NCBI GenBank assembly: GCA_025354075.1
Contig: JANXNO010000503.1
Location: 1 to 12,224 of the forward strand
DNA: 12,224 nucleotides
Origin: Burkholderiales bacterium
Lineage (GTDB): Bacteria; Pseudomonadota; Gammaproteobacteria; Burkholderiales; Casimicrobiaceae
Reading direction: 5' to 3'
The notes below the pieces were generated by a model. That model worked only from the letters and a program-made list of their open reading frames with translations. It did not search any database and had not been told where the DNA came from. The translations under genes were made by a program, and so were the position numbers. Position 1 is the first letter of the stretch; the number at the start of each line of letters is the position of its first letter. Shown here in pieces: positions 5,324-6,292 of the stretch.

Positions 5324-5905
5324 ATGACGACACCGTACACAACGATTGACTTTCCGCAATGGCTCGCCGACAAGGCGCACCTGCTCAAGCCCCCCGTCGG
5401 CAACCAGCAAGTCTGGCCGGGCACTGATTTGATCGTCACGGTCGTTGGTGGCCCGAACCAGCGCACCGATTTTCATGACGATCCGTATGAGGAATATTTC
5501 TGGCAATTCAAGGGTAACGCCTTCCTCAACGTCATGGATCGCGGCCAGCGTGATCGCATCGAGCTCAAGGAAGGCACGATGTACCTGATGCCGCCCCACC
5601 TGCGCCATTCACCGCAACGCCCCGAGCCCGATTCACGCTGCCTCGTGATCGAGCGCTCGCGTCCCGAAGGTGTTGTGGATGGGTTTGAGTGGTACTGCTT
5701 GAAATGCGATGGACTGGTGCATCGCGTTGAGGTGCAATTGAAAAGTATTGTGGATGATTTGCCGCCGCTGTTTGAGGCGTTTTATGCGAGCGAGGAGTTG
5801 CGGACTTGTTCGCACTGCGGAAGCGTTCATCCGGGGCGGCTTGCCCCCTCTGGTGCGCAGAGTCCCACCGTTCTAGTCCCCTCTCCCCTCGCGGGAGAGG
5901 GTTAG
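5324..5905 (+). CDS. nbaC: 3-hydroxyanthranilate 3,4-dioxygenase with repeat-encoded C-terminal tail
   Basis: This Fe(II) cupin dioxygenase opens the ring of 3-hydroxyanthranilate to 2-amino-3-carboxymuconate-6-semialdehyde. The product has 193 residues. Iron ligands H51, E57 and H95 are present, as are substrate residues R47, R99 and E110. The bacterial rubredoxin-like metal site has C125, C128, C162 and C165. These positions coincide with my recollection of the 174-residue Cupriavidus metallidurans enzyme. ATG 5324 is used because GAGG lies 6 nt upstream and the N-terminus then matches; a TTG at 5312 is less likely. The family ends soon after CGxxHPGR (R172 here). This protein runs about 21 residues further, and V185-G193 plus the TAG stop lie inside the inverted repeat that starts at 5876. 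The tail is therefore probably an insertion product, beyond the fold and likely tolerated. Confidence 0.96.
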
Positions 5906-5914
5906 GGTGAGGGG
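5876..5914 (+). repeat. Left 39-bp inverted repeat of the DUF559 cassette
   Basis: It contains a perfect 9-bp stem, CCCTCTCCC (5879-5887) with GGGAGAGGG (5893-5901), loop CTCGC, followed by TTAGGGTGAGGGG. Read in the nbaC frame it encodes VPSPLAGEG and the stop. Its last bases (AGGGG, 5910-5914) lie 4 nt before a GTG (5919) in the DUF559 frame. Transcribed, it would form a strong GC-rich hairpin directly at the end of nbaC. Confidence 0.9.
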
Positions 5915-5993
5915 TATCGTGCCCAACGAATCCACCTAGTTTGCCAGAACCCTACGTCACAACCAAACCGACACTGAACGCGAACTCTGGCAC

Positions 5994-6266
5994 ATGCTGC
6001 GAGGCCGCGAACTAGCCGGATACAAATTCAGAAGACAAGTCCCACTCGGCCCCTACATCGCAGACTTCGTATGTCTGAGCGCCCGCCTGATCATCGAACT
6101 CGACGGCAGCCAACATGGCGAACATGTCACCTACGATTCGGCAAGAACAAAATGGTTAGAGGCCCAAAATTTCCGACTACTTCGATTCTGGAACAGCGAG
6201 GTATTCGAGGAGCGGGAAGCGGTGCTGGTAACCATCCTCTCCGCGCTAACCGCCCCCTCACCCTAA
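5994..6266 (+). CDS. DUF559 endonuclease-like protein, probably 5'-disrupted
   Basis: DUF559 proteins are small and have a PD-(D/E)xK/Vsr-like nuclease fold, with biological role largely undefined. The 90-residue product from ATG 5994 has the family core: GYKFRRQVPLGPYIADFV (9-26), the acidic pair D24 and E36 in RLIIELDGSQH (31-41), and RFWNSEV (64-70). The homology clearly begins earlier: in the same frame, from 5940, the sequence reads ARTLRHNQTDTERELWHML, the family's first helix, but a TAG at 5937-5939 cuts it off from a GTG at 5919. Either translation starts internally at 5994 and loses the first helix, or the gene is a recent pseudogene. Its stop lies within the right inverted repeat. 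It shares no evident function with the catabolic genes around it. Confidence 0.72.
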   Translation: MLRGRELAGYKFRRQVPLGPYIADFVCLSARLIIELDGSQHGEHVTYDSARTKWLEAQNFRLLRFWNSEVFEEREAVLVTILSALTAPSP

Positions 6267-6292
6267 CCCTCTCCCGCGAGGGGAGAGGGGAC
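6254..6292 (-). repeat. Right 39-bp inverted repeat of the DUF559 cassette
   Basis: This is the exact reverse complement of 5876-5914, including the 9-bp stem and CTCGC/GCGAG loop. It contains the TAA stop of the DUF559 frame and encodes its last residues. In transcripts it could fold locally as a hairpin, or pair with the left copy to enclose the whole DUF559 message. Confidence 0.9.

Follow-up and report, generated by a model that had tools for sequence, protein, structure and literature searches.

The locus described here, a DUF559 nuclease gene enclosed by inverted hairpin repeats in a 12,224-nt stretch of DNA from a Burkholderiales bacterium of the family Casimicrobiaceae (contig JANXNO010000503.1 of assembly GCA_025354075.1), has relatives among several systems already in the literature. 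This stretch, hereafter the window, makes up a complete contig (C646); the draft genome to which it belongs has 4.38 Mb in 689 contigs. One related system is the intrastrand-triplex motif (TM/PIT; Holder et al., 2015, PMC4666352), which Escherichia coli MG1655 carries as TMECO at 18 loci, with five inverted doublets. Holder et al. tied TM to local instability, the triplex of the E. coli motif was demonstrated in vitro, and no mobility genes were reported in the neighbourhood of these sites in E. coli (PMC4666352). One hundred copies of the same palindrome were found in Enterobacter sp. 638 (PMC2869309). Another is formed by the REPIN-RAYT systems, or REPtrons, in which doublets of repetitive extragenic palindromic (REP) sequences are paired with REP-associated tyrosine transposases (RAYTs); as a unit, REPtrons reportedly do not seem to transpose (PMC6006769). 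Rickettsia palindromic elements, of ~150 bp, lie in frame in protein genes and are translated, with no enzyme named for them in the available part of the account (PMC10969869).

Judged by its sequence, the window repeat is the already published TM/PIT. The TM consensus, CCCTCNCCC N3-6 GGGNGAGGG N3 GGGNGAGGG, matches exactly at 5879-5913 (+) and 6255-6289 (-), and inverted doublets with inward tails are found here as in the E. coli table. The difference lies in the nuclease family, which stands between the repeats here and beside TM no. 9 in E. coli. With REPIN-RAYT systems the locus shares a hairpin-flanked nuclease gene, dispersed inverted doublets and a repeat type that varies with the enzyme lineage. 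However, the nuclease is of the PD-(D/E)XK type and not a Y1 HUH protein, the ends read GTCCCCTC without a GTAG/GTGG foot (compared at the window ends), and DUF559 forms an enclosed cassette that is present in several copies and lies inside other genes as well. Like the Rickettsia elements, the DUF559 insert can be a translated, in-frame palindromic insert, but it carries its own nuclease domain. It differs from a DDE insertion sequence in that the cassette encodes the DUF559 frame only, with no transposase gene.

We consider it probable that the cassette is one copy of a widespread REPIN-like mobile element of ~0.4-0.7 kb, with a DUF559 nuclease as its sole gene and ends of the TM type. The evidence comes from the association of DUF559 loci with inverted ends, their common architecture, partly lineage-specific ends, dispersed gene-less doublets, residence in frame inside other genes, alleles without the cassette and duplicates within one genome. 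From these comparisons we infer that the element is mobile. Its nuclease would cleave the repeats and act in trans on the doublets, and copying would be repair-based.

A preliminary description of the window, made from its letters, had reported perfect 39-base inverted ends around a DUF559 gene, each end a 9-bp hairpin, with an AGGGG of the left end just before the frame and a stop codon provided by the right end, and all of this was borne out (Table 1). The arms (39 nt each, 100% complementary, 339 nt between them) are the longest inverted pair listed in the window, and ~2e-20 such pairs would be expected in random sequence with equal base use. Folded as DNA, each arm gives a 9-bp stem closed by a loop of 5 nt, at -10 and -10.8 kcal/mol; compared with 200 shuffles the z-scores were -1.66 and -2.35, and 11 and 7 shuffles were equally stable. 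The hairpin is on the outer side of each arm and the G-rich tail, TTAGGGTGAGGGG, on the inner side; the hairpin part was folded here, and the triplex is known from the E. coli motif. The enclosed frame matches DUF559 with E 3.6e-41. Besides DUF559, the profile search gave MTES_1575 alone, below the cut-off of that profile, and NCBIfam gives the protein nothing beyond the DUF559 name. The GTG start comes 4 nt after AGGGG. In addition to this start signal, the left repeat supplies the stop codon, TAG 5903-5905, of the upstream 3-hydroxyanthranilate dioxygenase (3-HAO) gene, a role that goes beyond the preliminary description.

Table 1. Features of the DUF559 cassette and its neighbours in the window.
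Feature	Position	Strand	Remarks
Left terminal repeat	5876..5914	+	Outer 9-bp hairpin, inner G-rich tail GGGTGAGGGG; from inverted-repeat listing and folding
Right terminal repeat	6254..6292	-	Perfect inverted copy of the left repeat; carries the DUF559 stop codon
DUF559 (PF04480) nuclease frame	5919..6266	+	GTG 5919 to TAA 6264-6266; in-frame TAG 5937-5939
DUF559 domain used in comparisons	5940..6263	+	PD-(D/E)XK-type fold
3-hydroxyanthranilate dioxygenase (3-HAO)	5324..5905	+	Last residues, PSPLAGEG and stop, encoded by the left repeat
Amidohydrolase gene	6924..7928	+	3' of 3-HAO in relatives without the cassette

The start and stop signals of the frame are as described, but the in-frame TAG had been overlooked. 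The next ATG is at 5994, and a start there would lose the family-invariant residues E13 and W17; the window copy is therefore probably inactivated and non-functional. At the same site in a related genome (G004) the copy is open (L179), with GTG 3 nt after AGGGG and a C-terminus ..APSP before the stop.

To score inverted ends we aligned, for each DUF559 locus, 220 nt of left flank locally with the reverse-complemented 220 nt on the right and took the best alignment. Scores of at least 14 counted as positive, and the same geometry at shifted positions served as control. Summed over all sets, 135 of 192 DUF559 loci had inverted ends, compared with 7 of 820 shifted windows; the samples overlap slightly, as two contigs are shared between sets (L033 = L092, L058 = L093). 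Among named GTDB loci the count was 48/76 (shifted windows 4/429) in a set made up of the best 80 of 122 loci found, biased toward near relatives, with 4 of the 80 left out near contig ends. Relatives gave 21/28 (shifted 2/159), where L032 of 29 loci was left out for the same reason and L060 was not included. Best matches of a phylum-wide draw of 299 genomes, 108 of them with a PF04480 match, gave 15/28 (shifted 1/112; L208 of 29 left out near a contig end). A further 60 loci of the phylum-wide search, hand-picked from the listed matches to include multi-copy genomes and hence not random, gave 51 with inverted ends, and none of 120 shifted windows did. PF02021, a control nuclease family that is also PD-(D/E)XK, had inverted ends at none of 21 loci in genomes of the window's family (shifted windows 3/84; 1 of 22 loci near a contig end left out).

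An independent motif test, requiring a C-rich hairpin with an 8-bp stem on both flanks, was positive at 122 of 180 DUF559 loci and in 3 of 349 shifted windows (6 of 186 loci left out near contig ends), and at none of the 21 PF02021 loci. At least one hairpin was present at 176/180 loci, a figure that means less because shifted windows often hold one as well (132/349). The nearest tails pointed inward at 86 loci, outward at 4 and in the same direction at 6, the rest having no clear tail or hairpin on one side. Their architecture consists of a C/G-rich hairpin on the outside, in some cases followed by another hairpin, and of a G-rich tail on the inside, which in TM can fold back to form a triplex. 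PSP/GEG-type C-termini were found at 94/187 DUF559 loci compared with 3/42 for PF02021. Examples with scores of at least 14 span Pseudomonadota, Planctomycetota (L097, L103), Bacteroidota (L135) and Gastranaerophilales (L122), and the lone Dehalococcoidia and Deltaproteobacteria loci scored 12 each. Phage records matching DUF559 numbered only three. The association of DUF559 genes elsewhere with such repeats, whose absence the preliminary description had named as a case against its proposal, is thus present. Across the family the pattern is strong. It points to a mobile element whose nuclease had not been linked to repeats of this kind before in the literature covered: in PubMed Central (PMC) we found no report linking DUF559 to them, subscription papers being mostly outside its coverage, and no PMC paper contains both DUF559 and 'inverted repeat'.

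At some loci (L101, L107, L109, L123, L130, L155, L221, L230, L320, L321, L330) DUF559 follows a common upstream stretch and has no inverted ends. These may represent a settled or domesticated lineage.

The element also resides in frame inside other genes. An open frame extends at least 60 codons beyond DUF559 on each side at 17 of 99 loci. Pfam scans of 30 long DUF559 frames found DUF559 flanked on each side by host domains, or a single host domain matched in at least two stretches, at 12 loci of 9 host families: LipB (L036, L050), MnmG (L041, L043), hydantoinase B (L044, L057), TrpC (L132), MetH (L135), PriA (L098), AsnB (L222), HsdM (L225) and HsdR (L331). For split host domains the second stretch was deduced from the match count, with separate confirmation for LipB. 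One-sided evidence was obtained for DnaG near its end (L034, L035, L037), IleS (L118), HODM (L045), RecG (L131), GltB, GlnD and an amidohydrolase, and the remaining long frames scanned had DUF559 alone. The terminal repeats translate as Pro/Ser/Gly-rich linkers. In LipB, the loop GVYV-EAKI is short in 12 of 17 genomes and unclear in G008. The cassette occupies this loop in G004 and G010, each of which has a single LipB match, and also, as far as the contig end, in G000; in G014 the loop holds a gene-less doublet, in frame. For annotation this means that some long 'fusion' proteins (e.g., LipB, MnmG, PriA) are hosts of this element. A separate case is L122, where two DUF559 matches and a GHMP kinase domain share one open frame; its shifted-window score of 27 is probably due to the second DUF559 copy.

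The preliminary description had suggested a search for sites with a single or no copy at the same locus, and such sites were found. At the 3-HAO site the cassette is present in G000, G001 (truncated) and G004, and G003 has a single repeat up to the contig end. Without the cassette, the amidohydrolase gene follows ~10-50 nt after 3-HAO in G009, G012 and G013, and ~115 nt after it in G002. Duplicates within one genome share the element and not the flanks: L216 and L280 are 86% identical over 589 bp with boundaries at the repeat ends, and L097 and L103, from one metagenome-assembled genome, are 79% identical over 392 bp (the right flank of L103 is short). The median length of 98 elements was 474 bp (402-732). 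A clean DNA-level empty site for L280 was not found in 81 genomes of the genus of G234, where its flanks were matched separately only, and the right-flank difference among L223, L227 and L235 is uninformative. In G001 another sequence, which has a CCGGCAAAGCCGG hairpin, interrupts the copy (L173/L203) near the contig end.

The arms vary between DUF559 lineages, even within one genome (G063, G320, G260, G208). Between genomes, arm similarity was 0.33-0.37 for proteins below 60% identity, 0.50 at 60-70%, 0.78 at 70-80% and 0.66 above. With genome pairs fixed, reciprocal-best proteins had a mean arm similarity of 0.41 compared with 0.31 (Wilcoxon p 0.001, the pairs not being independent). These comparisons give moderate support to ends that would go with DUF559 lineages and be partly lineage-specific. 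Gene-less doublets are uniform. In the window's genus all 14 fetched doublets were 113-118 bp long with tails inward and 41-46-bp spacers; these, and 20 doublets from G063, had been fetched because they were paired. In the G063 genome (one contig, 3.4 Mb) the repeat found at the ends of cassettes L299 and L301 is present 150 times. Of 11 other genomes chosen from the family of G063, eight lack this repeat, and G260, G251 and G266 have 31, 7 and 3 copies. All 20 G063 doublets measured 122-125 bp, with an interior identity of 0.69 (shuffled 0.585) and 0.57 in the outer left flank. Given this uniform length, a partly conserved interior and unrelated flanks, they look like copies of one unit.

The AlphaFold2 model of DUF559 (mean predicted local distance difference test score 83.5) matches NGO0050 of Neisseria gonorrhoeae (3hrl). 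Among the characterised enzymes found, the modelled fold is nearest to the homing endonuclease I-Bth0305I (catalytic domain, 3r3p; Foldseek E 5e-4, TM-scores 0.68/0.74) and Vsr (1cw0), the latter match being weaker (E 0.09, TM-scores 0.70/0.51). Five residues, E13, D42, E53, D55 and H59, are invariant in 46 aligned DUF559 sequences and are candidates for catalysis. A role in anti-phage defence was considered; with PADLOC, neither the window protein nor the domain at L098 had a match, and the L050 fusion had one weak DpdF match (1e-4).

In E. coli K-12 the gene ycjD is annotated as DUF559. Its end, ..RRSPSP and the stop codon, falls by eye within a degenerate TM; 167 bp further downstream comes TM no. 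9 in the table of Holder et al. No inverted pair was found around ycjD (score 9), so its link to the element rests on the degenerate TM at its stop codon and TM no. 9. Of 5426 complete E. coli genomes, 3330 cover at least 80% of the ycjD locus (sapF-fabI; L091, L359, L360). Two genomes examined among the rest carry efflux genes at this position, with no TM in the part read; ycjD with its TM and the efflux operon are alternative contents of the sapF-fabI locus. The same alternative, eef operon or ycjD, has been described as eef loss, in an account whose available part does not mention TM (PMC12817139, 2026).

How the element would move can be outlined as follows. The DUF559 nuclease may recognise the folded end of its own lineage when this is single-stranded, during replication or transcription, and would cut there. 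PD-(D/E)XK-type enzymes hydrolyse DNA and do not rejoin it, so copying would have to use host repair, which could spread the element sequence with another copy as template. The gene-less doublets (~115-125 bp) and single repeats would form the non-autonomous part, as REPINs do with respect to RAYTs. Between genes the ends would give start and stop signals, and elsewhere they would be read through as linkers, so that the element could be tolerated in frame in permissive loops of other proteins. More tentatively, and in our estimate somewhat short of an even chance, DUF559 with its hairpin ends may be a class of transposable element that moves itself and its gene-less relatives by a hydrolytic Vsr/EDxHD-like nuclease and host repair, with no DDE, HUH, tyrosine or serine recombinase chemistry. 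This class would be adapted to in-frame life in housekeeping enzymes and be the source of TM/PIT repeats including those of E. coli, with ycjD as a relic. A nuclease family between TM-type repeats (in E. coli K-12, beside 1 of the 18 TM loci) makes the origin of these repeats directly testable, DUF559, including ycjD, gains a likely biology, and a second, unrelated enzyme would have reached a REPIN-like lifestyle.

Other explanations place the nuclease in a different role. DUF559 could be a free-standing EDxHD-like homing endonuclease with allelic homing at fixed sites, the hairpins being landing pads or terminators, which we regard as unlikely. The nearest characterised mobile-element fold is indeed that of I-Bth0305I, a DUF559 gene has been placed in the EDxHD homing family (PMC9403480), residence in the conserved MetH, PriA, AsnB and LipB recalls intein or intron targeting, and the element is inherited at the same site in LipB and 3-HAO. 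Allelic homing, however, predicts no gene-less doublets with the same ends scattered over many unrelated sites, nor would duplicate cassettes with unrelated flanks be expected in one genome. No intein (Hint) domain was found in the 30 DUF559 frames scanned, and an Rfam scan of the window alone found no family, group I introns included. In contrast to the EDxHD homing endonucleases, with which it shares the modelled catalytic-domain fold, DUF559 comes without intron or intein, as a single domain lacking a long DNA-binding region, and brings inverted ends and gene-less derivatives of its own; in the alignment, two of the three candidate residues of the active site are unmatched.

It is improbable that DUF559 is a host repair nuclease of the Vsr kind near which repeats gather for local reasons, such as nuclease-induced breaks. 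Its similarity to the Vsr fold would fit such a role, as would the DUF559 genes at conserved loci without paired repeats and the Caulobacter DUF559 protein VsrA, which triggers a DNA damage response in the absence of a cytosine methyltransferase (PMC12907096). Unexpected for a repair gene are the patchy, multi-copy distribution of DUF559, with up to 10 matches per genome, its residence inside unrelated enzymes and the paired hairpins with inward tails. Still less probable is another enzyme, e.g., a RAYT (Y1 transposase), as the mover of the repeats, with DUF559 genes as passengers between them. Y1_Tnp genes are present in 30 of 40 genomes searched, that of the window included, and RAYTs drive REP-like repeats elsewhere (PMC6006769). 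Yet inverted repeats were found at 7 of 23 Y1 loci (shifted windows 5/138; 7 of 30 loci left out near contig ends), none of TM type by eye. Two genomes with DUF559, G016 and G033, have no Y1 match, both G016 loci having inverted ends and the G033 locus none, and DUF559 recurs inside such repeats in several phyla. A RAYT as the driver is not supported by these data.

Several observations weigh against a mobile element built from DUF559 and these ends. The preliminary description had counted as adverse an abundant 39-mer whose pairs flank any gene. The repeat is abundant in this genome (41 copies at up to 3 mismatches; reversed control pattern 0), but only two facing pairs in the draft enclose a gene-sized stretch, one being the DUF559 cassette; the other surrounds an unrelated open reading frame (L200). 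Neither of the two adverse cases named in that description holds in full. The pairing of repeat and nuclease that it proposed, on the model of REP and RAYT, is supported by the bracketing of DUF559 loci, but repeat abundance does not track the cognate gene across the genus: G015 has 53 type-A copies and G002, G006 and G014 have 30, 25 and 31 type-B copies, with the type-A and type-B genes, respectively, not found, several of the genomes compared being drafts. These counts show no strict link within the genus between how abundant the repeat is and whether the gene is present; persistence after gene loss or missing draft sequence could explain them. The G063-type repeats of G260 are absent from the five examined of its seven cassettes. 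The lineage link is modest: over 123 elements the Mantel rho was 0.13, a value that 3 of 500 permutations attained, and reciprocal-best pairs win only 40 of 70 comparisons (sign test p 0.28). Over the 98 elements, flank matches were slightly longer, at 3.44 nt, than the 3.23 nt in permutations (reached in 1 of 200); the element ends are fuzzy, and no target-site duplication of constant length was found. In a plasmid-collection test (9 of 45 matching records, 300-nt flanks), 5 of the 9 records reached score 14 (three from Deinococcus, one each from Pseudanabaena and Azospirillum), yet so did 3 of 18 shifted windows, and in 3 of the 9 the tails point outward. The N. gonorrhoeae DUF559 locus (L343) has, by eye, direct and not inverted hairpin repeats on both sides, and a minority of DUF559 genes lie at conserved loci without an inverted pair (e.g., Pelagibacterium, some Devosia). 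Among 14 control genomes, the one from E. coli had no match to PF04480. When DUF559 is aligned with I-Bth0305I, E53 falls opposite E, whereas D55 and H59 fall opposite N and W, so an active site common to both is not established. Finally, VsrA of Caulobacter, a DUF559 protein with a Vsr-like fold, differs in its proposed action in mismatch repair, and is needed for the DNA damage response of cells that lack a cytosine methyltransferase (PMC12907096).

A few further features were observed. Near the ends of L216 there is, by eye, an 8-nt repeat, which is not general. In the Synechocystis sp. B12 plasmids (L338, L339), DUF559 has outward tails and lies beside a short DUF1156 coding sequence and a BREX PglX gene; these are perhaps insertions in methyltransferase genes. 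The window holds a second inverted pair, of a further repeat family, at 9266-9294 and 9444-9472 (also 2046-2064): GTCATTCCCGCGAAGGCGGGAATCCAGAC, 90% complementary, with 149 nt enclosed. A dispersed sequence at ~6719-6895 of the window, with the translation ..SFRFFLSIAG..SPFFGY..WRSK.., recurs at 497-784 of L200 in the same genome.

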